This document shows, piece after piece, positions 41,514 to 55,066 of a stretch of DNA of 64,000 nucleotides. The position numbers were made by a program, and so were the translations under genes. Source of the DNA: Chelativorans alearensis (GTDB lineage Bacteria; Pseudomonadota; Alphaproteobacteria; Rhizobiales; Rhizobiaceae). The stretch lies in contig NZ_WQNI01000009.1 of NCBI RefSeq assembly GCF_010993735.1, positions 1 through 64,000 of the forward strand. Reading direction: 5' to 3'. Below the pieces are notes generated by a model. It was given only the letters and a program-made list of their open reading frames with translations, did not search any database and was not told the DNA's origin. Positions within the stretch are counted from its first letter, which is position 1; each line of letters opens with the position of its first letter.

Positions 41514-44500
41514 TCAATCGCAGAACTGGACCTGACCGCGTGGATGGTACGGGGCGCCATCCAGCCACACATCTGCGGTAGAAAGAACGTTTCCACCGCA
41601 ATCGAGCGTGGTGTGCCGCAGGAATTGCACGGGATCGGGAGTGATGACCGCTGGCGTCACCGTCAGTCCGACCATCGCCCAGCCGTTCAGCGTGGTACCG
41701 GGGCTTGGAGAGAGGTCAAGGCTTAGGGTATTCCGAAGCCGGAACCGGTTGGAACGTTTGATGTCGGCTCCGCTGCCGGGTTGGCGGTGCAGCCGGTGCG
41801 TGGTAGCGTCCCAGAAGACAAGCGGCTGCGTCACCTCGAGCATTTCCACGTCCACCTGAAACTGCAGGTATTTGGGATCTACCCCAAACTCGATCTCGCG
41901 AATATCGAATTCCAGATCGACCGGCCCGTTGTGGAAGTGCCACACATGGTGATTGGTCTCGTCGCCCAAGAGAAAGAGGCCTGGGGTGACGGTTGCTGGG
42001 CCAAACCATATGCCCTGATTGATCGAATATACCACCCCGTTTTCGGCGGTGGCCTCCGTCACGGGCGTGGATGTTATCCCTTCGTTGTTCGTGGCAAAAT
42101 CAAATGTATACGGGGCAACAGCGGGCGTGGGCAGCACATCGCAAAGCACCTGCGTCGTCGTCACACAATCGCTGCAAAGCTGAACCTGCCCCTGCGGCTG
42201 GTACTCGCTGCTGCCGTCCAGCGTCCAGTCCGTCACGGCAAGCACATTCCCACCGCAATCGGTGGAGGTATGCCGCATGAACTGTACGGGCGCGGGAGTG
42301 TCGACCACCGGCGTCATCGTGAGGCTCATCATCCCCCACTGGCTCAGCGTGGTCTGGTCGCCTGCAGTGAAGGCAAGGCTTGTGACATTCCGAAGCCGGA
42401 ACCGGTTGGGATAATGGATGTTGGTCGCGCCGCCGGATCGGCGGTACAGCCGGTACGTGACAGGGTCCCAGTAAAAATACGGCTGTGTCACCTGCATCGC
42501 TTCCGTGCCTTCCGGAAACTGCAGATATTTGGCGTTATTCGAAACATGCATCCCGCGAACATCGAATTCCAGATCGACGGGCCCGTTGTGGAAGGTCCAC
42601 AAGTGCTCGGGGTCCTTGCCGCTGCCCAGGATAAACGCGCTCGTTTCAGTGTCGAACCATATGCCCTGGTTGATCGAATATACCACCCCGTTGGGGGCGG
42701 TGGCCTCCGTCACCGGCGTGGATGTTATCCCCGCATCGCTCTCAGTGAAATCAAATGTATACGGGGTGACAGCGGTGGCGGGCTGCACATCGCAGAGCAC
42801 CTGCGTCGTCGCCGTCACACAATCCGATCCGCCCCCGCCGCCGGAGCAGCCGCAATTGCAGTAGGGGCCGGAAGCGTAAGTCAGACCCTGGAAAGCTGCG
42901 GCATGGCAGGCGACGCCGCCGCCCGCATTGCGGTAGAGGTGCGTGATGGTGGCCGGCGGATTGTCGTAGTAGGCACGTGCGGTGATGTTCTGGACGAGAG
43001 CATCGATGTCGCCGGTTCCAGGCACCCATACGCCTTCGCCGTCGATGAACTCCACGCGGTCTGGCACCGGATCGAGGCTCCGCACGCCCTCCCAAGGGTC
43101 GATGTCGATAAAGTCGAGGCGCAGGCTCGTCATGCGCTGCGCCACCTCGTCGAGCGTGAAAGTAAATCGGCTTTCGGGATTTGCATGGCCGAGCGGCGCG
43201 TTCACCGACACATTCTGCCCGGGTTGCCAATTGGCGCCGCAAGGAGTGCTCCCACCCGGGGCCGTTACGGTGTTGAACTTGATCCGCGCTTCCTCGCCCG
43301 TCCTGGGATTGGTCACGGTATAGATGTAATCGTGTCCTTCCTGCCCATCCGGGTCAGCGATGACATTCGTCTGTGGCCATTCAAGCTCCACCAGGGACGG
43401 TATGCCATCAGTGGTGTCGGCGACCGCGATCGGCGTATATGGTTGCCCTTCGGCATCCGTGTCGTAGTGCCGTACGAAGTTGCCTTCACAGTCATAGACA
43501 TAGTTGCGGAAGAACGGCACCGCGCAGCGCTGCCCCTCTTCGTTGGGCTCGACATCGGGCCTCAGGTCGCGCATCTCGCGGGCGTGCACTGTCGAGGCAC
43601 AGGCCGGCGGCTGGGGCACCACTTGCCCGTTGGGGTCGACTACATAGTCCTGCCCGTCGAGCGTGGTGTCGTTGGAAGACAGAATGTTGCCCTCGCAGTC
43701 CACTACCGTGTCGCGCCGGAACGGCACAACCGTGCCGTCGGCACGGATGTCGTAGAGAAGCTGCGTTGTCGCCGTCGGCTCACAGTTTTCACACTCGATG
43801 CAATTGCAGGCGGGGCCGGAAGCGTAGGTGATGCCCTGGAAGGCAGCGGCATGGCAGGCGAAGCCGCCTCCCGCATTGCGGTAGAGGTGCGTTATGGTAG
43901 CCGGCGGATTGTCATAATAGGCATGTGCCGTGACGTTCTCGCCAATAGCGTCGATGTCGCCGGTCCCAGGCACCCATACGCCTTCGCCGTCGCTGAAATC
44001 CACGCGGTCTGGCACCGGATCGAGGCTCCGCACGCCCTCCCAATGGTCGAGGTCGACAAAGTCGAGGCGCAGGCTTGTCATGCGCTGCGCTACCTCGTCG
44101 AGCGTGAAAGTGAATCGGCTTTCGGGCTCTCCGTGGCCGATCGGCGCGTTCACCACCACATTGTTCCCGGGCTGCCACGCTTCACACTCCCCTCCTGGGG
44201 TTGTGGAGGCAGCCGTGACCGTGTTGAGCTTGATCTGTGCTTCCTCGCCCGTCCTGGGATTGGTCACGGTATAAATGTAATCGTGTCCTTCCTGCCCAGC
44301 CGGGTCAGCGATGACATTCGTCTGTGGCCATTCAAGCTCTACCAAAGATGGTGTGAGGCCGTTGGGGCAGTCGGCCCCCGCGACCGGCTGATATGGTTGT
44401 CCTTCGGCATCCGTGTCGTAGTGCCGTACAAAGTTGCCTTCACAGTCATAGACATAGTTGCGGAAGAACCGCACCGCGCAGCGCTGCCCCTCCTCGTTGG

Positions 44501-46166
44501 GCTCGACATCGGGCCTCAGGTCGCACATCTCGCGGGCATGCACCGTCGCGGCACATGGCTCCTCCGCCGGCGGCTGGGCCACCACCTCGCCGTTCGGGTC
44601 GACGATATAGTCCTGCCCGTCGAGCCCGGTGTCGTGGGTCTCGATGACATTGCCCTCGCAGTCCACCACCATGTGCCGCAGGAACGGCACAACCGTCCCG
44701 TCGGCACGGATGTCGTAGAGAAGCTGCGTCGTCGGCGTCGGCGCGCATTCCGCATCCTGCGGGCATGGGCCGACGCTCACCGCCGCGGTCGGGGCGTAGG
44801 CCACGCCGTCAAGGTCGGTGTCGAAGAACTGGCCCGTCGGCTGCCCGTCCTGCGATACATACCAGCGCAGGAAGCTCACCGTCCCGCCGTCGCACATGAC
44901 CTTCATCTCAAGGTCGGTGCCGTTCTCGCAGCTTCCGACCGCTCCCTGCACCTGGTAGGCGGCGCCGTCCAGATCGGTGTCCTCGGGCGGCTGGATGGTG
45001 CCGTCGGCATCCCTGCAGATCCTGCGGATGAACGGCGTCGAGGCCGTCCCCACCTTGTCGCACAAAAGGAGGGCCTCGCACTTCGGCGCCCCCGGCGCCT
45101 GCGCCGCCACCTCGCCGTTGGGGTCGACGACATAGTCCTGCCCGTCGAGCCCGGTGTCGTGGGTCTCAAGGACATTGCCCTCGCAATCCACCACCATGTG
45201 CCGCAGGAACGGCACAACCGTGCCGTCAGCCCGGATGTCGTAGAGGAGCTGCGTCGTCGGCGTCGGCGCGCATTCGGGGTCCTGCGGGCACGGGCCGACG
45301 CTCACCGCCGCGGTCGGAACATAGGCCACGCCGTCAAGGTCGGTGTCGAAGAACTGGCCCGTCGGCTGCCCGTCCTGCGATACATACCAGCGCAGGAAGC
45401 TCACCGTCCCGCCGTCGCACATGACCTTCATCTCAAGGTCGGTGCCGTTCTCGCAGCTTCCAACTTCACCCTGAATCAGATAGGCCGCGCCGTCGAGATC
45501 GGTGTCCTCGGGCGGCTGGATGGTGCCGTCGGCATCCCTGCAGATCCTGCGGATGAACGGCGTCGAGGCCGTCCCCACCTTGTCGCACAAAAGGAGGGCC
45601 TCGCACTTCGGCGCCCCCGGCGGCTGCGCCACCACCTCGCCGTTGGGGTCGACGACATAGTCCTGCTCGTCGAGCCCGGTGTCGTGGGTCTCAAGGACAT
45701 TGCCCTCGCAATCCACCACCATGTGCCGCAGGAACGGCACAACCGTGCCGTCGGAACGGATGTCGTAGAGGAGCTGCGTCGTCGGCGTCGGCGCGCATTC
45801 GGGGTCCTGCGGGCATGGGCCGACGCTTACCGCCGCGGGGTCCGAGGGGGTATAGGCCACGCCGTCAAGGTCGGTGTCGAAGAACTGGCCCGTCGGCTGC
45901 CCGTCCTGCGATACATACCAGCGCAGGAAGCTCACCGTGCCATCGTCGCACATGACCTTCATCTCAAGGTCGGTGCCGTTCTCGCAGCTTCCGACCGTAC
46001 CCTGCACCTGGTAGGCGGCGCCGTCCAGATCGGTGTCCTCGGGCGGCTGGATGGTGCCGTCGGCATCCCTGCAGATCCTGCGGATGAACGGCGTCGAGGC
46101 CGTCCCCACCTTGTCACAAAGCAGGAAGGTCTCGCATTCGGTGTATACGCATGTGGTCCTAGCCAT
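41514..46166 (-). CDS. Giant cysteine-rich tandem-repeat protein (1550 aa), putative fibre
   Basis: A 1550-aa protein with no signal peptide or membrane segment. A short module of about 55-60 aa recurs about 14 times. It runs LLCD or similar, then FLRH-type, then D-x-x-GNVL, then DTxLDGxxYxxxG-V-C. Three consecutive supermodules of 173-177 aa (residues 15-540) are nearly identical. They are followed by two ATVHAREM modules of roughly 300 aa (containing DEVAQRMTSLRLDF) and two modules of roughly 200 aa (NGVVYSINQGIWF, FHNGPVDLEFD). A GGAG precedes the ATG. It lies between terminase and portal, outside the normal GTA plan. It is probably a particle surface fibre or adhesin; this is inference. 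A shorter paralogue is encoded just upstream. Confidence 0.85.
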   Translation of the reverse strand: MARTTCVYTECETFLLCDKVGTASTPFIRRICRDADGTIQPPEDTDLDGAAYQVQGTVGSCENGTDLEMKVMCDDGTVSFLRWYVSQDGQPTGQFFDTDLDGVAYTPSDPAAVSVGPCPQDPECAPTPTTQLLYDIRSDGTVVPFLRHMVVDCEGNVLETHDTGLDEQDYVVDPNGEVVAQPPGAPKCEALLLCDKVGTASTPFIRRICRDADGTIQPPEDTDLDGAAYLIQGEVGSCENGTDLEMKVMCDGGTVSFLRWYVSQDGQPTGQFFDTDLDGVAYVPTAAVSVGPCPQDPECAPTPTTQLLYDIRADGTVVPFLRHMVVDCEGNVLETHDTGLDGQDYVVDPNGEVAAQAPGAPKCEALLLCDKVGTASTPFIRRICRDADGTIQPPEDTDLDGAAYQVQGAVGSCENGTDLEMKVMCDGGTVSFLRWYVSQDGQPTGQFFDTDLDGVAYAPTAAVSVGPCPQDAECAPTPTTQLLYDIRADGTVVPFLRHMVVDCEGNVIETHDTGLDGQDYIVDPNGEVVAQPPAEEPCAATVHAREMCDLRPDVEPNEEGQRCAVRFFRNYVYDCEGNFVRHYDTDAEGQPYQPVAGADCPNGLTPSLVELEWPQTNVIADPAGQEGHDYIYTVTNPRTGEEAQIKLNTVTAASTTPGGECEAWQPGNNVVVNAPIGHGEPESRFTFTLDEVAQRMTSLRLDFVDLDHWEGVRSLDPVPDRVDFSDGEGVWVPGTGDIDAIGENVTAHAYYDNPPATITHLYRNAGGGFACHAAAFQGITYASGPACNCIECENCEPTATTQLLYDIRADGTVVPFRRDTVVDCEGNILSSNDTTLDGQDYVVDPNGQVVPQPPACASTVHAREMRDLRPDVEPNEEGQRCAVPFFRNYVYDCEGNFVRHYDTDAEGQPYTPIAVADTTDGIPSLVELEWPQTNVIADPDGQEGHDYIYTVTNPRTGEEARIKFNTVTAPGGSTPCGANWQPGQNVSVNAPLGHANPESRFTFTLDEVAQRMTSLRLDFIDIDPWEGVRSLDPVPDRVEFIDGEGVWVPGTGDIDALVQNITARAYYDNPPATITHLYRNAGGGVACHAAAFQGLTYASGPYCNCGCSGGGGGSDCVTATTQVLCDVQPATAVTPYTFDFTESDAGITSTPVTEATAPNGVVYSINQGIWFDTETSAFILGSGKDPEHLWTFHNGPVDLEFDVRGMHVSNNAKYLQFPEGTEAMQVTQPYFYWDPVTYRLYRRSGGATNIHYPNRFRLRNVTSLAFTAGDQTTLSQWGMMSLTMTPVVDTPAPVQFMRHTSTDCGGNVLAVTDWTLDGSSEYQPQGQVQLCSDCVTTTQVLCDVLPTPAVAPYTFDFATNNEGITSTPVTEATAENGVVYSINQGIWFGPATVTPGLFLLGDETNHHVWHFHNGPVDLEFDIREIEFGVDPKYLQFQVDVEMLEVTQPLVFWDATTHRLHRQPGSGADIKRSNRFRLRNTLSLDLSPSPGTTLNGWAMVGLTVTPAVITPDPVQFLRHTTLDCGGNVLSTADVWLDGAPYHPRGQVQFCD
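44546..46124 (-). repeat. Three near-identical ~525-bp direct DNA repeats
   Basis: Units at about 45594-46124, 45069-45593 and 44546-45068 encode residues starting LLCDKVGTASTPFIRR. Long blocks match base for base; for example GATCCTGCGGATGAACGGCG recurs at about 45012, 45543 and 46075. They differ by one 6-bp indel and scattered substitutions. Such identity suggests recent duplication or ongoing recombination. Confidence 0.85.
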
Positions 46167-46344
46167 TTCGGGCCGCTCCAGTAAATTGGGGGAGAAATTG
46201 GAAAGGGCGGCACTCGGGCCGCCCAGCTCGGATTGCTTGCGATTGGAAAGTCACGATACCGGCGCGGGCTATCGGGCAGCCATCGCGCGGTCGTCGATCT
46301 TCAATCGTCATAGTGATATTGCCGCAGGGATTTCCCTTGCGCGG

Positions 46345-47985
46345 CTAGCCGCAAAGCTGAACCTGCCCCTGTACCTGGTAGGCCGTGCCGTCCAGATTCA
46401 CATCCACGACAGAAAGAACGTCTCCACCGCTGTCGAACGTGATGTGCCGCAGGAACTGCACCGGATCAGGGCCGCTGCTCCGTGGCGTAACCGTCAGCCC
46501 GAACAATCCCCAGGAAGCCAATGCATTGGGGGCGCTGAGAGCAAGACTGGTGACATTCGTCAGCCGGAAACGATTGGGGGATGCGGTATTCGTGAAGAGG
46601 GGGTCGCGGCGCAGTCGTTTGGCGACGTCATCCCAGGTAACATTGGGTTGCGTCACCTCCAGCATCACCGTGTCCTGTGGGAACTGCAGATACTTGGAAA
46701 GCAGCGTAAGCTGCGTATCACGGATATCGAATTCCAGATCGACGGGCCCGTTGTGGAAGGTCCACTGGTGCGTATCGGTGTTGTTGCCAAGGGAAAAATA
46801 GCCCGGGTCACCGCCGTTGGGCGACCAGGAGCCCTGGTTGATCGAATATACGACCCCGTTGGGGGCGGTGGCCTGCGTCACCGGCGTGGATGTTATCCCC
46901 TCGTTGCTCGCGGCGAAATCAAATGTATACGGGGCAACAGGGGGCGTGGGCAGTACATCGCAAAGCGCCTGCGTCGTCGAAGTGATACCGTCGGAATCGC
47001 TGGAACTGGAGCACTCGCCGACGTTCACCTCCCCTTGCGGAGTATAGTCACTACCGTCAATCGTGGTGTCGGTGAAAGAGAGCACGTTGCCATCGCAATC
47101 GAGGCAGAGATGCCTTAGAAATTGGATAGGCCCAGATGCTGCGGGTGCTACGGTCAGCCCAACCAGCCCCCACGAGGCCGCCCCCAAATCAAGCGCGTTG
47201 AGAGTAAAGCTGGTAATATTCTCAATTCGAAAGCGGTTCGCTGCTCTAAACGATGTGTTGGCGGTGCTGCACGCCTGCCTGGTGGCCGGGTCCCATGTCA
47301 TGCCCCCTACCGGATCAAGCTGTACAACCTCGGTCCCCGGCGGCAACTCGACGCAGCCAACAGCGCCGGATGTCGAGGGGCGCAGGTCGAATTCCAGATC
47401 GACCGCGCGGTCGAATGTCCATGTCTGCACTGGACCGTCACCTGCCTGGCCGAGAAGCAGTATTTCCGTCGGGGGCTGGCCGATCTGGGTGGAGTCGCAC
47501 TGGTCCACCTGCCAATTGACGCTGTTGGACGACGTCCCGTTTGCTGGGCAGGACAGCCCAGAGAGACTGAGGTTAACCGGCTCTTCCGCGGGTGTCCCCG
47601 CATCGCACATCGGTTGCGTCGTCGAAGTTGCGCAACCGCAGCAATCGCCCACCTTTACGGGATCGGTGGGCACGACGTCGGCGCCGGCAAGATCGGTATC
47701 GAAGAATTCGCCGGTCGCCTCCCCGTCACGCGTGACGTACCATCGCAGGAAGGTCATCCCCGCGCTGTCGCACATGACCTGCTTTTCAAGATCGTGCCTG
47801 TCTCCGCAAGCGCCGATCTCGCCCTGAATAGTGTAGACACTTCCGTCTAGATCGAGATCTTCGACCCGAACGCTCCCATCGGCTTCCTCGCAGAACCTGC
47901 GGATGAAGGGGGTCGTCGACGATGCTGTTTTGTCGCAGAGAAGAATGCTTTCGCACTCCTCATGCGTACAGATGACCTCTGCCAT
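46345..47985 (-). CDS. Cysteine-rich repeat protein (546 aa), paralogue of the giant
   Basis: A 546-aa protein whose first 110 residues (MAEVICTHEECESILLCDK... PFIRRFCEEADGS...) align with the giant protein's start. It contains about 4 copies of the short module (LLCD, VMCD, PMCD, ALCD). Its C-terminal 210 residues (TFDFAASNEGITSTPVTQATAPNG) match the giant's last modules. Start MAEVICT with AAGGAG 9 bp upstream. A 78-bp spacer with a hairpin separates it from terminase, and 178 bp separate it from the giant gene. Probably a partner or alternative component of the same structure. No known family is assigned. Confidence 0.82.
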   Translation of the reverse strand: MAEVICTHEECESILLCDKTASSTTPFIRRFCEEADGSVRVEDLDLDGSVYTIQGEIGACGDRHDLEKQVMCDSAGMTFLRWYVTRDGEATGEFFDTDLAGADVVPTDPVKVGDCCGCATSTTQPMCDAGTPAEEPVNLSLSGLSCPANGTSSNSVNWQVDQCDSTQIGQPPTEILLLGQAGDGPVQTWTFDRAVDLEFDLRPSTSGAVGCVELPPGTEVVQLDPVGGMTWDPATRQACSTANTSFRAANRFRIENITSFTLNALDLGAASWGLVGLTVAPAASGPIQFLRHLCLDCDGNVLSFTDTTIDGSDYTPQGEVNVGECSSSSDSDGITSTTQALCDVLPTPPVAPYTFDFAASNEGITSTPVTQATAPNGVVYSINQGSWSPNGGDPGYFSLGNNTDTHQWTFHNGPVDLEFDIRDTQLTLLSKYLQFPQDTVMLEVTQPNVTWDDVAKRLRRDPLFTNTASPNRFRLTNVTSLALSAPNALASWGLFGLTVTPRSSGPDPVQFLRHITFDSGGDVLSVVDVNLDGTAYQVQGQVQLCG

Positions 47986-48022
47986 TTCAGATCGCTCCTT
48001 TGGGTAAGTGATGGACAATGCT

Positions 48023-50013: not shown

Positions 50014-50021
50014 ACTAAATT
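50014..50021 (+). repeat. 8-bp target-site duplication, left copy (ACTAAATT)
   Basis: ACTAAATT immediately left of the IS1595 left inverted repeat. The identical copy sits at 52610-52617 at the right end. Eight-bp duplications are characteristic of the IS1595 family. Confidence 0.9.
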
Positions 50022-50044
50022 CCTAATTATATACTTGACGTACC
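50022..50044 (+). repeat. IS1595 left inverted repeat
   Basis: 23 bp, identical in reverse complement to 52587-52609. It contains TTGACG, which doubles as the -35 of an outward-to-inward promoter. Confidence 0.9.
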
Positions 50045-50063
50045 ACTGCTGATTTGTTATGGT
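50035..50063 (+). promoter_or_regulatory. Promoter reading into the element from the left repeat
   Basis: -35 TTGACG (50035-50040, inside the inverted repeat), 17-bp spacer, -10 TATGGT (50058-50063). It lies 26 bp upstream of the 66-aa gene's ATG and would also drive the transposase. Confidence 0.6.
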
Positions 50064-50088
50064 TAAGTCAACTGGTCGGGAGTGCGTC

Positions 50089-50289
50089 ATGTCAAACCGA
50101 GAGACCTCAATACGCTACGAAGCAACCGACGCGGAAGTTGTCGTTGCTGGCGATTTGACCGTGATCGTATTTGAGACTGTGACTCACGGTCGGGTTGGCG
50201 TGCAGATGCCGCGCTCTGCCTGCGAGCGTCTAAGCGAGCAATTGCAATACGCTCTAGCTCAAGCAAACGATCCTTCTGCTCAGGGGTAA
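50089..50289 (+). CDS. 66-aa protein upstream of the transposase
   Basis: Begins MSNRETSIRYEATDAEVVV and ends DPSAQG. GGGAG 6 bp before the ATG supports this start; the ATG at 50059 lies inside the -10 box. Predicted alpha/beta, soluble (VAGDLTVIVFETVTHGRVGVQ then a helix CERLSEQLQYALAQA). It lies 11 bp before the transposase, in one transcript. No known family; possibly an accessory or regulatory factor for transposition. Confidence 0.6.
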   Translation: MSNRETSIRYEATDAEVVVAGDLTVIVFETVTHGRVGVQMPRSACERLSEQLQYALAQANDPSAQG

Positions 50290-50300
50290 AAATCGTAGCC

Positions 50301-51293
50301 ATGTTTGACATCACCAATCCAATTTACACCGACGCCGACAAGGCCCGCGAGCATCTGGAGGCCATCCATTGGCCGAACGGTCCTATCTGCCCGCATTGCG
50401 GTAACGTCGATCCTGCCCGCATCACGAAGATGCAGGGAAAATCCACGCGCCCCGGCGTCTACAAGTGCAATGAATGCCGCAAGCCGTTCTCCGTGACGGT
50501 CGGCACCGTCTTCGAGCGCTCCCATATTCCGATCAACAAATGGGTGCTGGCTTCGCATCTCATGGCCGCATCGAAGAAGGGCATGAGCGCCCATCAGCTA
50601 CACCGTATGCTCGGCGTCACCTACAAAACCGCTTGGTTCATGGCACACCGCATTCGCGAAGCCATGAAGGAGGACAACGACACGTCCGGCCCACTTGGTG
50701 GCGAAGGTAAAACCATCGAAGCCGATGAGACCTACATCGGCAAGCGCGAGACACCACGCAACTATGCTCGCCCGCGTGCTCGCAAGAACTGGAAGCCAAC
50801 AAAATCAGGCAAGGCCGGTGGCGCACAGAAGCGCATCGTGGTTGGTCTTGTCGAGCGTGGCGGCAAGTCCCGCATGTTCCATCTGAATGACGCCACCAAG
50901 GCCACTGTGCGCGAAGTGCTGGTGCGCAACGCTGATCGCCAGTCCATCCTCTACACGGACGAAAGCCGCCTCTACACAGAGACCGGCGCGGAATACGCCA
51001 AGCACGGCACCACCAAGCATTCCGCCGGGGAATACGTTCGCTACGAGGACGGCGCGGTCATCCACTCTAACACGATTGAAAGCGTCTTCTCCGTCTTCAA
51101 GCGCGGCATGGTCGGCGTCTACCAGCATTGCGGCGAGGCTCACTTGCACCGCTACCTTGCCGAATTCGATTTCCGCTACAACCGCCGCGCCGCGCTCAAG
51201 ATCAGCGATGCAGAGCGCGCCGAAGACCTGCTCCGTGGTGCCCGCGACAAGCGTCTTACTTATCGGCGGATTGGTGAAGCCACGTACTCGTAA
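50301..51293 (+). CDS. IS1595-family transposase (ISXO2-type)
   Basis: A 330-aa transposase with the N-terminal zinc ribbon CPHCGN...YKCNECRKPF, then a helix-turn-helix-like region (KGMSAHQLHRMLGVTYKTAWFMAHRI). The catalytic domain starts EADETYIGKRETPR (first D), continues through LYTDESRLYTETG (second D), and ends with NTIESVFSVFKRGMVGVYQH (third acidic E). The motif YLAEFDFRYNRRA is the IS1595-family C-terminal signature. It is intact and likely active. Confidence 0.95.
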   Translation: MFDITNPIYTDADKAREHLEAIHWPNGPICPHCGNVDPARITKMQGKSTRPGVYKCNECRKPFSVTVGTVFERSHIPINKWVLASHLMAASKKGMSAHQLHRMLGVTYKTAWFMAHRIREAMKEDNDTSGPLGGEGKTIEADETYIGKRETPRNYARPRARKNWKPTKSGKAGGAQKRIVVGLVERGGKSRMFHLNDATKATVREVLVRNADRQSILYTDESRLYTETGAEYAKHGTTKHSAGEYVRYEDGAVIHSNTIESVFSVFKRGMVGVYQHCGEAHLHRYLAEFDFRYNRRAALKISDAERAEDLLRGARDKRLTYRRIGEATYS

Positions 51294-51648
51294 GCAGAAA
51301 GCGCGCAGGCTTCTCCACAAGCGCAAGTCGAAGCGATTCGACTCCAAGAAATAGAGCGGTGTACCATCCGAATCACTGCGACGGTCTGCTTGATCCAGAG
51401 CGGCACTCTGGGCAACCAAGCGGGAAGTGATCGCAGCCTGTGCCGGTCATGGCGTCAGGACTCGGCCCACGAAGTGAGGCAGAAACCCCGGCCATGAAGC
51501 GGGGCCACACAGGGGTACCGGATGTGGCACGTGACGCGGATGGTACACCGATGCTGCCATGAAGGACCGGGTGAATGTCCTTCGATGGACCGGATGGTTT
51601 CAACCTTTTGGGGTTGTCACCGGTGATACCCCGATAGGAGCCTTCCCG

Positions 51649-51744
51649 ATGCGGAAGCGAATATCGGTCAACATAGAGGTGACAGTGGATGCCGCAAAAT
51701 GCCTTCGGGTCTTAGCGTTTGTCCTTTTTGTCATTCTCATCTGA
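51649..51744 (+). CDS. 31-aa membrane peptide
   Basis: MRKRISVNIEVTVDAAKCLR followed by a hydrophobic C-terminus (VLAFVLFVILI). AGGAG stands 8 bp upstream of the ATG. It runs against the small charged gene (51712-51870) and overlaps it by 33 bp at the 3' ends. The length and strong ribosome-binding site support translation; function unknown. The preceding 355 bp (51294-51648) after the transposase hold nothing else recognised. Confidence 0.45.
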   Translation: MRKRISVNIEVTVDAAKCLRVLAFVLFVILI

Positions 51745-51870
51745 AGCGGGGCGGCGGCTTCGGTCGTCGCCCTTTTTCTTCCCGCCTCTGGGATCAGGCG
51801 GGGTCTTCAGCAGGCGGCGCAATATCTCATCGCCCTTTTCCTGGTCTTTGTCTTTGGGGGGGTTCGACAT
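51712..51870 (-). CDS. Small charged KDQEKGDE/LRRLLKT protein (module A)
   Basis: A 52-aa protein: MSNPPKDKDQEKGDEILRRL, then LKTPPDPRGGKKKGDD and a lysine/arginine-rich tail. Its first half is conserved with the protein at 53356-53538 (about 20 of 28 residues), whereas tails diverge. Its ATG (51868-51870) shares the CATG palindrome with the ATG of the divergent HEPN-like gene. Differences between copies are enriched at silent positions of this frame (CTG/TTG, GAT/GAC), supporting that it is coding. It has no good Shine-Dalgarno. Plausible antitoxin or regulator of the HEPN partner. Confidence 0.6.
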   Translation of the reverse strand: MSNPPKDKDQEKGDEILRRLLKTPPDPRGGKKKGDDRSRRPASDENDKKDKR

Positions 51871-52510
51871 GGCTCATGATCCAGAAACGGAAGCGTTGAT
51901 CCAGCGCATCGGAAAAGAGCAAGACGACATCATAACTGGGATTGGTCTCGCAACAACTGCATGGTCAGCGCTCGAATCAGGGTTAAGCGATTGCTTCTCA
52001 CTTATGGCGTTCAACGCGTACGGCAACGACAAAGCCGGCATCATCTTTTACAGCCCGAGCAACTTCGAAACTAGGCTCCGTTTGGTCGGCGATCTAGTAG
52101 CTTTCACGTTGGCGGGCAACGAAACCCTCGCGTCGCGTTGGGCAACGATCAAGGGACGCATCCAGCGAAAGCAGGGAGTGCGAAATGCAATTGCCCACGG
52201 CTCGCTGATAAACTCCGGCAACCGCATGCTTCTCACCCCGGCATTTGGTGACAGACTACGCTGGCAAGGCGGACGGGGTAAAACCGGGATGAAGGGCACG
52301 GACATTCAGCAGTTCGCCGCCGCCGTTTGGCACCTGTCCGGCATCATGGTGCACTACAATCGAGCCCTTGCGCGATATCTTGGGGCTCCCAGTTACTATC
52401 AGCCGGACCTTGGCGAAACATATAGCGAACTAGTTCGCGAACTAGATAATCAGATTCAGGCCCGAAGTAATCAAAATCCCAACTCGCCAGAAAGCGGCTC
52501 CCGCGCCTAA
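51869..52510 (+). CDS. HEPN-like protein A (RNxxxHG), IS1595 passenger
   Basis: A 213-aa largely helical protein. IGLATTAWSALESGLSDCF near the N-terminus and RNAIAHG at residues 105-111 give the R-N-x3-H pattern typical of HEPN RNase/toxin folds (R-x4-6-H with a polar residue after R). The layout W-x2-LE, long helix, RNxxxHG, helix is repeated in protein B (52785-53357). GGGGGGG lies 6 bp upstream of the ATG. The start codon overlaps the divergent small gene's start. The 3' end overlaps the antisense 77-aa gene by 167 bp. RNase activity is inferred from the motif only. Confidence 0.6.
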   Translation: MAHDPETEALIQRIGKEQDDIITGIGLATTAWSALESGLSDCFSLMAFNAYGNDKAGIIFYSPSNFETRLRLVGDLVAFTLAGNETLASRWATIKGRIQRKQGVRNAIAHGSLINSGNRMLLTPAFGDRLRWQGGRGKTGMKGTDIQQFAAAVWHLSGIMVHYNRALARYLGAPSYYQPDLGETYSELVRELDNQIQARSNQNPNSPESGSRA

Positions 52511-52577
52511 TCATCTCTGGCGTGATCTCGATCTCATCTTCGTTTTGTGCCGGCCTGTCAGCCGAATCAGTACTCAT
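52344..52577 (-). CDS. 77-aa acidic protein near the right IS end
   Basis: Begins MSTDSADRPAQNEDEIEITPEMIRRG and continues SDYLVRELVRYMFRQG; EIEITPEMI is shared with many small alphaproteobacterial proteins of unknown role. GAGG 6 bp before the ATG is a good ribosome-binding site. The ATG sits only 10 bp inside the right inverted repeat. It is antisense to the last 167 bp of the HEPN-like gene, an unusual overlap that could allow antisense control. Confidence 0.6.
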   Translation of the reverse strand: MSTDSADRPAQNEDEIEITPEMIRRGSRFLASWDFDYFGPESDYLVRELVRYMFRQGPADSNWEPQDIAQGLDCSAP

Positions 52578-52586
52578 TTCATCCTC

Positions 52587-52609
52587 GGTACGTCAAGTAT
52601 ATAATTAGG
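52587..52609 (-). repeat. IS1595 right inverted repeat
   Basis: Exact complement of 50022-50044. It is followed directly by the target duplication ACTAAATT (52610-52617). Confidence 0.9.
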
Positions 52610-52617
52610 ACTAAATT
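52610..52617 (+). repeat. 8-bp target-site duplication, right copy (ACTAAATT)
   Basis: Identical to 50014-50021. The next base starts the end of the second element, so element A inserted exactly at element B's flank. Confidence 0.9.
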
Positions 52618-52640
52618 CCTAATTGTGTGCGTGACCTACC
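52618..52640. repeat. Terminal repeat of element B
   Basis: CCTAATTGTGTGCGTGACC plus TACC. Aligned with element A's end it differs at five positions. Lying directly against A's target duplication, it marks a tandem insertion at the same 8-bp target. Confidence 0.75.
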
Positions 52641-52784
52641 GAGATTGGAAATGCGCGATTATTCGCGACAGGCTGGCACTGAGCATCGCGGGGCCCCCTG
52701 CTCGAAGGGATATCGATGAACTGGCAAGGATTATCAACCGCCACCAACGGGACGATAACGACGACTTGGACGCGGAATGCGCGA

Positions 52785-53357
52785 TCAAGGTGTTCGCAGT
52801 TGTGCGAGCGCATCTTTCGTGAAGATGGCCTGTGAGATCGTGGATAGGTAGCGGTTGGACATTGCGGTCAATTCGGCAACGGTCTCGATCCCCTCAATCG
52901 TATATTCATGGTTCGAGAGATTGAATTCGTCGTCGCCGATGAATTTTAGAGTTCGCAGCACGCACGTTTTGGTGGCGGCATCCCAACTGTCAAGCACGCC
53001 ATGAATCAGGTTGTTCCTGTGCGGGCTCAGTTCCTTCAATTTGGTCGTCAGTGTGCGAATGTCCACGGTCAAGTTCGCGAGGGCCGGGTGCTGATTAAAC
53101 CAGCGCTTCAGCAGCTTGATTTTGGCCTGAAAACTGATCGGGTGTTTAGCATCGAAAATGGTGTCTGAGTGCTCGCGGTTGTTGACGTGGATTAGGACCG
53201 CATCAATATGTTGCTCTAGTCGCGCCCACTGAGCGGAAGCGAAGCCAAGAGCGCGGAAAAGGTCGTCCAAACCATCGGGCGCATCAAGCGGCCCGCCGAC
53301 AAAAACGAAATCGCGGTTTAGGCCGCCCTTGTCCAAGGTGACGCGGTATTCTTCCAT
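52785..53357 (-). CDS. HEPN-like protein B (RNxxxHG), IS1595 passenger
   Basis: A 190-aa protein. ALGFASAQWARLEQHIDAVLI, a middle FQAKIKLLKRWFNQ, and SPHRNNLIHGVLDSWD with R114-N-N-L-I-H119-G. It has the same plan as protein A but low overall identity. GGGGGA 7 bp upstream is a good Shine-Dalgarno. The ATG at 53355-53357 overlaps the divergent small gene's ATG on one CATG. A toxin- or defence-like RNase role is proposed from motif and genetic pairing, not shown. The C-terminus runs into the 52618 end region. Confidence 0.6.
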   Translation of the reverse strand: MEEYRVTLDKGGLNRDFVFVGGPLDAPDGLDDLFRALGFASAQWARLEQHIDAVLIHVNNREHSDTIFDAKHPISFQAKIKLLKRWFNQHPALANLTVDIRTLTTKLKELSPHRNNLIHGVLDSWDAATKTCVLRTLKFIGDDEFNLSNHEYTIEGIETVAELTAMSNRYLSTISQAIFTKDALAQLRTP

Positions 53358-53538
53358 GATAGAATCCCCCATGGATAAAGACCAGGAAAAGGGCGACGAG
53401 GTGTTGCGCCGCCTGTTGAAGACCTCTTCCGATCCGAGGAAGGCACGAACGGATCGAAAGGGTGCGCTTCCAAAGGACCTGGATGTATCGGCCCCGGCTG
53501 GTACAACTGGAACCAGCCGGGGCGACACAAAGTCCTAG
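53356..53538 (+). CDS. Small charged KDQEKGDE/LRRLLKT protein (module B)
   Basis: A 60-aa protein: MIESPMDKDQEKGDEVLRRL, then LKTSSDPRKARTDRKG and a threonine-rich tail (TGTSRGDTKS). It aligns from the first methionine with the protein at 51712-51870, so the CATG-overlap start is conserved. An internal ATG (53371) aligns with the KDKDQ block. It converges on the 79-aa gene with a 4-bp overlap. Confidence 0.58.
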   Translation: MIESPMDKDQEKGDEVLRRLLKTSSDPRKARTDRKGALPKDLDVSAPAGTTGTSRGDTKS

Positions 53539-53774
53539 CTCGGGCCGTTCTGTGTTTGGATCAACAGCTTCCAGCGTATCGCACCCGTAGAGGGGTTGTG
53601 TTGGCGATGGTTTTGCGGAGGCAACGGATCGCCCGCATTGCAGGCATATTCGTCTCTGCAATTGGCGCAGATGTATATGCCGGAATAGGGCGCGGCGGTG
53701 CCCGGCGAGTGCACCTTGTCGAAACAGGCGTCCACCTTGTGGGCCAGTTCGTCGCCATTCTGATAAAGTGCCAT
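53535..53774 (-). CDS. 79-aa CxxC protein with PLPPQNH motif
   Basis: MALYQNGDELAHKVDACFDK at the start, then GIYICANCRDEYACNAGDPLPPQNH and IRWKLLIQTQ. The CxxC (ICANC) and a following cysteine suggest a zinc-ribbon-like or rubredoxin-like mini domain. Similar small proteins with PLPPQNHxQH...IRWKL occur in many bacteria without known function. AGGA 9 bp before the ATG. It belongs to element B's cargo and has no equivalent in element A. Confidence 0.62.
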   Translation of the reverse strand: MALYQNGDELAHKVDACFDKVHSPGTAAPYSGIYICANCRDEYACNAGDPLPPQNHRQHNPSTGAIRWKLLIQTQNGPS

Positions 53775-54028
53775 GTCATAATTTTCCTGTATGAGGCCAC
53801 AGGAAGGCTTGACGGAATCACCTGGAGAATTAGTGTGGTGATTGTTCTTCAAGGTCGAGCCTCTCAGTGGCTTGGTTGACGATAATGGCGGTGATTCGTG
53901 GTCACCGCAGCCATCCATTTGAGGGGAGTCCAGAGCGTGAAAGCAAGGACGTTCCCGTTCCGTCCACTGGAATCAGAGGTTGTTCCCACGCTTTTTGCGC
54001 AACCAGAGAGAGTCGGTGCGCTTTCTGC

Positions 54029-54086
54029 TTAGGCGTAACCGGTCTCACCAATCCGCCGATCGGTGACGCGCTTGTCGCGAGCCATG
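54029..54086 (-). pseudogene. IS1595 transposase remnant, 3' fragment (element B)
   Basis: Encodes ARDKRVTDRRIGETGYA-stop, matching the end of transposase A (ARDKRLTYRRIGEATYS-stop) and continuing in the same 3' noncoding sequence (AAGCAGAAAGCGC). Separated from the upstream fragment by an inserted segment starting at 54087. Confidence 0.8.
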
Positions 54087-54096
54087 AGATTAAATT

Positions 54097-54119
54097 CCTA
54101 ACTACGTGCGTGACAAACA
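54097..54119. repeat. Third IS1595-type terminal sequence
   Basis: CCTAACTACGTGCGTGACA..., preceded by ATTAAATT. It resembles the ends at 50022 and 52618 and sits at the left boundary of the segment that interrupts transposase B. No matching right end was found near 54817. Confidence 0.6.
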
Positions 54120-54133
54120 AGGGAGCAAGCCGG

Positions 54134-54442
54134 TCAGGCGGCGTTAAGCGTCGGAAGGTCGCTGACATCAACTTCGCGCTCCGCATGCCAGGCGTCGTAA
54201 GCGGCCTGCATGCGCAGCCACGAGGCGGCGCCTCCGCCAAATACCTTGCCAACCTTCACGGCAATAGTCGGGGAAAGCGGCTTGCGCTCGGCAAGAATGT
54301 CATGCAGGTGCTGGCGCGAAATGCCAAGCATGCCGGCAATCTCGCTCTTCGTCACATTGAGATCGATCAGGATATCATCCAGGACCGCCCCTGGATGCGA
54401 GGGGCAGCGATCAGGGTCTCTGATAGCGGGATACACAGTCAT
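54134..54442 (-). CDS. higA: HigA-family antitoxin
   Basis: A 102-aa helix-turn-helix antitoxin. CPSHPGAVLDDILIDLNVTKSEIAGMLGISRQHLHDILAERKPLSPTIAVKVGKVFG is the classic HigA/VapI helix-turn-helix (XRE) pattern, followed by ASWLRMQAAYDAWHAERE. It neutralises HigB and represses the operon through the upstream dyad. It lies 11 bp after higB, in the usual toxin-first order. Confidence 0.92.
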   Translation of the reverse strand: MTVYPAIRDPDRCPSHPGAVLDDILIDLNVTKSEIAGMLGISRQHLHDILAERKPLSPTIAVKVGKVFGGGAASWLRMQAAYDAWHAEREVDVSDLPTLNAA

Positions 54443-54453
54443 GGCAGTGCCTC

Positions 54454-54732
54454 CTAATGGTACTGTTCGAAATCGACGTGGAGCGCATCACTGTCTTCGA
54501 ACTCGAACGTGATGCACCACGGCCCGTTCACATGGATCGTGTACCGCGTCGGGTTAACGCCCTTGAGGGCGTGGAAGTCAAAGCCGGGATGGTTCACATC
54601 CTCCGGCGCTCCGGCTGCCTCAAGCCTTTCAAGGCGCAGAAGGATGCGCTTGTGCATTCTGGCGTCAATCTTCGCTGTACGGCCCTTCGACCACAGTTCC
54701 GCCAGCGCCTTTGATTTGAACGACTTGATCAC
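54454..54732 (-). CDS. higB: HigB/RelE-family toxin
   Basis: A 92-aa ribosome-dependent mRNA interferase-like toxin. MIKSFKSKALAELWSKGRTAKI and RMHKRILLRLERLEAA, followed by YTIHVNGPWCITFEFEDSDALHVDFEQYH, match HigB. Starts with GTG at 54732, about 7 bp downstream of the -10 and without a Shine-Dalgarno, so the mRNA may be leaderless. Confidence 0.92.
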   Translation of the reverse strand: MIKSFKSKALAELWSKGRTAKIDARMHKRILLRLERLEAAGAPEDVNHPGFDFHALKGVNPTRYTIHVNGPWCITFEFEDSDALHVDFEQYH

Positions 54733-54734
54733 AA

Positions 54735-54780
54735 GTGTAAGCTATCAGGCTACACATCAATGTCAACAGATAGCTTACAC
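54735..54780 (-). promoter_or_regulatory. higBA promoter/operator dyad
   Basis: 12-bp perfect arms GTGTAAGCTATC (54735-54746) and GATAGCTTACAC (54769-54780). Between and overlapping them on the minus strand are -35 TTGACA (54761-54766) and -10 TAGCTT (54739-54744) at 16-bp spacing. A repressor dyad straddling the promoter fits HigA autoregulation. Confidence 0.7.
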
Positions 54781-54816
54781 ACAGCAGGAGATGAGTCGAG
54801 ATGTCTTCTTCTGCCT

Positions 54817-54902
54817 GCGCAGCGCGGCGGTTGTAGCGGAAATCGAACTCGGCAAGGTAGGTGGCTTCACCGCGATGCTGCTGGACGCCGATCACGCTTT
54901 GG
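54817..54902 (-). pseudogene. IS1595 transposase remnant, upstream fragment (element B)
   Basis: Encodes ...VIGVQQHRGEATYLAEFDFRYNRRAA, matching transposase A (GMVGVYQHCGEAHLHRYLAEFDFRYNRRAA) with small deletions. It stops abruptly on both sides; the 5' two-thirds of the gene are absent. Confidence 0.8.
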
Positions 54903-55066
54903 CGATATTTACCTTCTCGTACACAGTTTAGCTTACCAACAATTTCCCCAACACCCCATTCCCCAAAATGTGCTAAACCTCTCCCAGGGGGACGACTTTG
55001 CGCACTTGCCGCGGCTTTTTCCGCGGCAGGTCGACAAGCAAGGGGAAGAGGCCGGGCGGTCCAGCA

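Follow-up and report, generated by a model that had tools for sequence, protein, structure and literature searches.

The window, a 64,000-nucleotide stretch of the Chelativorans alearensis genome, carries two IS1595-type insertion sequence (IS) elements, A and B, in which a gene for a large HEPN-like protein lies head to head with a gene for a small charged protein. These elements probably represent a clade of the IS1595 family in Alphaproteobacteria that is built from a fixed frame and one exchangeable cargo slot, with the small gene as a part of the frame rather than a cognate antitoxin. A preliminary description of this DNA had correctly located both gene pairs, the overlap of the pair A start codons on one CATG, and the motifs RNAIAHG, RNNLIHG and DKDQEKGDE-LRRLLKT. 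Its picture of a conserved small partner and a variable effector with common start codons agrees with the comparison of elements. Its suggestion of a toxin–antitoxin pair, in which the small protein would be the cognate antidote, is not borne out, as one family of small proteins faces unlike partners.

The frame would comprise a left end with a promoter-like sequence, the transposase gene, a spacer, the small gene on the opposite strand, and a constant right end of about 60–90 bp. The slot would extend from the ATG of the small gene to the right end and be read away from the small gene. The ATG of the cargo would coincide with that of the small gene (CATG), so that on the other strand the cargo would find a Shine–Dalgarno-like sequence in the constant codons at the 5' end of the small gene. 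Cargoes may be exchanged through recombination in the constant arms. Most of them would be HEPN-like proteins that retain the R[ND]xxxH motif and are putative RNases; defence, abortive infection or addiction could be how they benefit the element. The small protein would be a real, translated component of the frame, possibly with a regulatory role.

Partner exchange is visible in pairwise DNA comparisons. Among the matches listed, homology covers the transposase gene, the spacer and the small open reading frame (ORF), stops within a few nucleotides of the CATG and resumes at the right end, and it continues past the CATG only for related partners, for example between loci L012 and L021. Transposases that are 97% identical (L026 and L014) accompany partners sharing 22% identity, while the respective values are 96% and 20% for L015 and L013, and 94% and 17% for window element A and L012 of Chelativorans salis. 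In L018 and L024, the partners are 83% identical and the small proteins 46%. Moreover, L016 (Nitratireductor alexandrii) and L022 (N. arenosus) carry an element at the same place with different cargo. Their sequences agree at 94% over 4056 columns on one side and 92% over 1970 on the other, where the matching windows reach into the flank, and 50-nt windows of the flank and of the frame beside the slot are 92–100% identical. The replaced stretch begins a little way inside the right end and takes in the cargo and about 33 nt of the small gene, up to approximately its codon 11; both cargoes belong to the second partner family (described below), with a mutual identity of 25%. This is a cargo exchange in place, which would most simply have come about by recombination or conversion with another element.

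A set of 56 partners, in which those of distant loci were picked by hand, was grouped by phmmer E-values calculated for that set. It comprises one HEPN-like group of 39 and a second family with 7 members, besides a DUF3800 protein and unassigned singletons. Neither large protein of the window matched plasmids (tblastn, E 0.01). The right ends of L011, L015, L019, L023, L027, L028, L029 and L033 contain a further ORF that runs from the constant end into the slot, as does the ORF at 52344–52577 of the window. Many of these right-end ORFs have an EITPEMIEAG-like motif and others differ; L012 and L021, which have a common partner family, also have a common right-end ORF body.

The start codons of the two genes overlap exactly in 25 of 31 cases, far more than chance would give: in both window pairs and in 23 of 29 loci retrieved by small-protein searches. 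The six loci without exact overlap include L008–L010, which have no partner, L012, whose partner starts with TTG in another frame, and the damaged loci L034 and L035. A wider profile search gave 50 matches, including weak ones that are probably non-members (e.g. L137 and L141), and in 33 of them a divergent partner of at least 140 amino acids (aa) starts no more than 70 nt away. The overlap is exact in 22 of these 33, a count favoured by taking the best among alternative starts.

Ribosome-binding sequences were compared in 34 exact-CATG pairs: the two from the window, 23 from L007–L035 (29 loci, less L008–L010, L012, L034 and L035) and 9 from distant loci chosen among the 22 exact ones of the wider profile search. 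A Shine–Dalgarno-like core precedes the partner in 25 of the 34 pairs and the small gene in 8. The mean anti-Shine–Dalgarno pairing energy is −6.1 kcal/mol over the 20 nt before the partner, −4.2 before the small gene and −2.2 in the background, although the sequences are related and the significance is thus overstated. Window pair B was scored at the start chosen in the preliminary description; the corrected start has a GGGGG run 8 nt upstream. Since the 20 nt upstream of the partner are small-gene codons on the opposite strand, and the core is found there in most pairs, the constant side appears to offer a ready ribosome-binding site, which any cargo with its ATG on the junction might use.

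Promoter-like sequences are present in both element ends, and the earlier statement that the pair must be expressed from a shared region is not supported. TTGACG occurs in 15 of 18 left ends and 14 of 18 right ends. With the best of three spacings taken and no control set, the second hexamer is GATAAC at 17 nt in 8 of the 18 left ends and TATGAT at 18 nt in 3 of the 18 right ends. In many left ends, AAGGAG follows, and then the transposase start. The transposase and partner genes are on one strand, and the right-end ORF and the small gene are on the other; because these two sets lie on opposite strands between promoter-like ends, facing promoters would yield mutually antisense transcripts.

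The small ORF recurs beside IS1595 transposases of Alphaproteobacteria, including Mesorhizobium, Nitratireductor, Chelativorans, Hoeflea, Aquibium and others. A first profile matched 20 of 397 genomes of the order, and a second one 23 of 289 genomes of a class sample and 11 of 299 of a phylum sample, with the own genome included each time; the phylum-sample matches all fall within the same class, the out-of-class share of that sample not being given. In distant relatives, the core is approximately RRDxxLKRMLxTPPKPHK. Over twenty core codons in 26 sequences, the ratio of non-synonymous to synonymous variation (pN/pS) is 0.22, and third positions are the most variable; because of these two features, the small ORF behaves as a translated protein under protein-level selection. 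The set consisted of 29 extracted cores minus L009, L033 and L035 (L010 and L034 were missed by the motif), and its collection by protein similarity biases it toward protein-level conservation. As a guess, the protein could be a regulator of the frame or an accessory to transposition. Neither NCBIfam nor PHROGs assigned the window partners or the small proteins to an informative family.

A survey starting from the transposase, in which 29 of 38 places were read (the own place and 8 already found through the small ORF being excluded), revealed a small ORF of this type or a similar one at 4 of 4 places with at least 60% transposase identity, at 6 of 13 with 50–60%, and at 4 of 12 below that. Two of the last four are of another type and on the opposite strand, and one surveyed sequence, L153, ends 187 nt past the transposase. 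Another small-protein type (like SERFIDAARELGxDE...FDExxKKxAxxPP) is found near the distant IS1595 elements of L165 (546–743), L166, L167 (3515–3712) and L168, together with other kinds of cargo that by eye look DUF3800-like or PIN-like in L166–L168. Beside the IS1595 transposase of L140 is a 367-aa open frame that by eye resembles a trypsin-type protease and whose C-terminus passes without interruption into the small-protein motif.

The HEPN-like character of the large proteins, also proposed in the preliminary description, is supported by conserved residues and by a predicted structure. The R[ND]xxxH motif is present in 41 of the 56 partners, compared to 2.4 in shuffles, and in 37 of the 39 members of the HEPN-like group. 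In 17 aligned partners, including both window proteins, R105 and H110 are invariant, and N106 and an upstream glutamate are nearly so. The AlphaFold model of partner A, the sole HEPN-like protein modelled, is a helical bundle with a predicted local distance difference test (pLDDT) score of 83.9 and helices at 66–80, 85–110 and 143–171. The motif (105–110) lies at the end of the third core helix. An Rx4H motif, a polar residue after the arginine, an upstream acidic residue, a helical bundle and this position of the motif are likewise features of the HEPN superfamily, as described in parts of PMC3710099. The nearest Pfam families are HEPN_Cthe2314 (PF18730), matched by partner B at E 0.012, below the cut-off and scanned from the earlier start, and HEPN_RiboL-PSP (PF18735). 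A difference is that none of the 17 partners reaches the cut-off of a Pfam HEPN family. PDB sequence profiles gave matches at E 0.19 and above or none, and Foldseek found no structural match at E 0.001, which is not counted against HEPN. The model of the L026 partner, from the second family, is too poor for use (pLDDT 61). The conserved motif suggests that the HEPN-like cargoes may be RNases, and a role in defence or toxicity is conceivable. A search of PADLOC-DB 2.0.0 at E 0.1 matched none of ten proteins, a set made up of both window partners and eight others, with the small proteins outside it.

A toxin–antitoxin module, with the HEPN-like protein as toxin and the small charged protein as direct antidote, would fit the head-to-head arrangement, the small charged partner and the existence of HEPN toxins, and a neighbouring IS1595 remnant does carry HigB and a HigA-like helix-turn-helix (HTH) protein. 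This explanation is nevertheless improbable, because the partner is exchangeable while the small gene stays constant, and the small gene is not co-inherited with a toxin of its own. One small-protein family stands opposite the HEPN-like group, the group of 7, the DUF3800 protein and singletons, and in L016 and L022, the partner was replaced with most of the small gene unchanged. Of 15 other places that carry a relative of partner A, 12 show no recognisable small ORF in the roughly 1500 bases on each side (at one of these, L175, a contig end truncates the sequence), and 10 of those 12 also have no IS1595 transposase. The small ORF, in turn, occurs without a partner on three Agrobacterium/Rhizobium plasmids (L008–L010), in a common gene neighbourhood that also includes a 123-aa fragment of a transposase. 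The preliminary description had named absence of the small frame beside the large gene as evidence against itself; by this measure the pairing is largely refuted, while the conservation of R and H and the HEPN-like architecture survive. Furthermore, a Pfam search of nine ORFs between 50301 and 54732 gave no nucleotidyltransferase match, so that the window pairs differ from HEPN–MNT toxin–antitoxin systems in the absence of such an adjacent match. In a table of PMC3710099, no operon partner is given for Cthe_2314.

The small ORF could also be a mere control region of DNA or RNA, a promoter and ribosome-binding platform for the cargo, in which the reading frame is incidental. The position of the partner's Shine–Dalgarno-like sequence in the first codons of the small gene and the high conservation of the core DNA agree with this idea, which appears very doubtful in view of the low in-frame pN/pS with variable third positions, an LKRMLxTPPKPHK-like core kept at the protein level in distant relatives, and a frame that is continuous with a larger one in L140. 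Another explanation is that HEPN genes are ordinary passengers, gained at random by IS1595 elements, and that the junction is only where the constant DNA ends. IS families with passenger-carrying members (tIS) are described in part of PMC7986276, and HEPN-like relatives do occur outside elements. We regard this as rather unlikely, since exact overlaps in 25 of 31 close and 22 of 33 wider loci, often with unlike partners, need selection or a mechanism, and the Shine–Dalgarno-like sequence lies on the constant side. The fixed frame with an exchangeable slot has points against it as well: a Mantel test of transposase and small-protein distances found no significant correlation, and in the distant loci L140, L149 and L154, a cargo on the same strand precedes the small frame or is fused with it.

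Several known systems share some of these features. Like the IS1595 family with its ISXO2-like transposases and tIS members, the elements have the transposase domain, inverted ends, 8-bp duplications and an internal passenger gene, but they differ in the constant small gene, the start overlap, the regular slot and the in-place exchange of cargo. Parts of PMC7157771 describe Tn3-family transposons with toxin–antitoxin passengers at a fixed place, repeatedly acquired and subject to recombination between transposons, including one HEPN–MNT pair. The likeness lies in toxin-type genes acquired repeatedly at a fixed transposon place and exchanged by recombination; there, however, the toxin travels with its antitoxin and the res site is the proposed place of exchange, whereas here the small gene stays and the partner changes. 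An integron-cassette HEPN protein (PDB 3jrt, named in PMC3710099) is similarly cargo of a mobile, exchangeable cassette system, although the slot described here is bordered by a start codon on one side and a transposon end on the other (no search was aimed at attC sites or integrases). Passenger-carrying IS elements and Tn3 toxin–antitoxin exchange are known. Among the papers listed by the literature search, no description of the constant small gene, the start overlap, the cargo slot or the in-place exchange was found; passengers of this clade may, however, already appear in the study that founded the IS1595 family (Siguier 2009).

Element A is a complete unit (Table 1). Its transposase matches DDE_Tnp_IS1595 (PF12762, E 4.8e-32) and a zinc ribbon (PF12760, E 2.2e-12), both above the Pfam cut-off, and NCBI names its relatives IS1595 family transposases. 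The inverted ends of the element are CCTAATTATATACTTGACG. The characteristic target duplication of the IS1595 family is 8 bp, and 16 of 18 elements with both ends examined have duplications matching at 8 of 8 positions, mostly in the form AGG-N8-CCT; the 18 elements measured are about 2.3–2.9 kb long. G002, a relative from the same genus, has element B at the same point and no element A: the flank leads to AGG-ACTAAATT and then directly to the tip of element B, and over the 2183 bp shared from there onward, the window and G002 show 99.6% identity. Two relatives, L195 and L196, have the empty target AGG-ACTAAATT-CCT. Given these comparisons and the perfect duplications, A is most simply a fairly recent insertion and B appears to be older, with just a short transposase remnant left. 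No insert like the 76-aa ORF of A was found in the 17 other left ends compared. A phage search gave two distant transposase matches and nothing else.

Table 1. Features of elements A and B and their gene pairs in the window.
Feature	Position	Strand	Basis
Complete IS1595-type element A, 2588 bp	50022..52609	+	Inverted ends, identical 8-bp duplications, exact stretch absent from G002
Left 8-bp target duplication, ACTAAATT	50014..50021	.	Empty sites of L195 and L196
Right 8-bp target duplication, ACTAAATT, touching the tip of element B	52610..52617	.	End comparison, G002 comparison
76-aa ORF between the left end of A and the transposase	50059..50289	+	ORF list
IS1595-family transposase A, 330 aa	50301..51293	+	Pfam domains PF12762 and PF12760
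Small constant protein A, 52 aa	51712..51870	-	Small-protein family searches
Stretch within small gene A with Shine–Dalgarno-like G-run for partner A; free energy (dG) -11.2	51849..51868	+	
CATG common to both pair A start codons	51868..51871	.	ORFs and homology boundary
HEPN-like partner A, 213 aa; E36, R105-N106...H110	51869..52510	+	Alignment, model
Right-end ORF, 77 aa, EITPEMI motif; begins within the constant right end and extends into the 3' end of partner A	52344..52577	-	
Right inverted end of A with TTGACG	52587..52609	-	Inverted-end comparison
Right end of the older, truncated element B	52618..52640	+	End comparison
HEPN-like partner B, 190 aa, MEEYRVTL..., HRNNLIHG	52785..53357	-	Alignment, translation
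Conserved CATG junction of pair B	53355..53358	.	Homology, profile matches
Other CATG, chosen in the preliminary description, 15 nt into small gene B	53370..53373	.	
Small constant protein B, 60 aa, MIESPMDKDQEKGDE...	53356..53538	+	Profile matches
Remnant like the transposase 3' end of A, 72 nt, left of element B	54011..54082	-	DNA self-comparison

Element B is a remnant that has kept its right end, both genes and the 72-nt transposase match. The CATG to which the preliminary description assigned the pair B start codons does exist, but the conserved junction is the other one listed, since alignment with other elements is offset by 15 nt and profile matches start at 53356; this correction changes both B proteins by five residues at their starts. 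The spacer DNA of element B resembles the spacers of L007, L014 and L019 and contains a 127-aa ORF (53535–53918) with GIYICANCRDEYACNAGDPLPPQNH and no Pfam family. Beside B, a third IS1595-derived remnant (54086–54907) retains part of a transposase (54818–54907) and, near 54097, an end of the IS1595 type. It contains a HigB-like toxin gene (54454–54732, minus strand) and, in the HigA position, an HTH gene (54134–54442, minus strand) whose Pfam HTH matches are below the cut-off.

The insertion site is also shared. Among 26 elements with outer flanks, a count that leaves aside window B, L008–L010 and L034, 14 are located at the same nucleotide, two bases before the TTGACA of a promoter-like sequence, in both orientations. 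These are window A (50014–50021), L012, L016, L017, L018, L021, L022, L024, L025, L028, L029, L031, L033 and L035, which span seven named genera and further Rhizobiaceae; the duplications match at 8 of 8 positions in the 7 of them with both ends readable. The site precedes a gene-transfer-agent-like head gene cluster, opposite the PBP1A gene, and the PBP1A gene, the large terminase gene or both are in the fetched stretch of 12 of the 29 loci L007–L035. In the window, this neighbour is a cluster of terminase, portal, prohead protease and capsid genes, which is probably a gene transfer agent because it lies beside PBP1A in several genera. A genus sample gave a site match in 14 of 16 genomes, of which 4 are occupied by IS1595-type ends, 8 are empty and 2 are ambiguous. 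Between the terminase and portal genes, at 41514–48018, there are two large ORFs of 557 and 1550 aa without a Pfam match.

A further-reaching proposal, which we hold only tentatively and consider somewhat doubtful, is that the clade has been selected to swap single effector genes. The small gene would then serve as the left recombination arm and provide, on its opposite strand, the ribosome-binding site of the effector, the ATG of the effector would be fixed by the overlap, and facing promoters in the element ends would produce mutually antisense transcripts, one with transposase and cargo and the other with the right-end ORF and the small gene. If so, these IS1595 units would act as a shuttle that repeatedly delivers HEPN-like and other effectors to one nucleotide before a gene-transfer-agent promoter. 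The elements represent a minimal transposon that swaps an effector gene as a cassette, with a junction precise to the start codon, and thus a directly testable system for studying how small mobile elements gain defence- or toxin-like cargo. They also supply HEPN-like proteins of great diversity, which are missed by curated family models. A tempting reading is corrected as well: a conserved small gene divergently paired with a variable effector is not necessarily its antitoxin.

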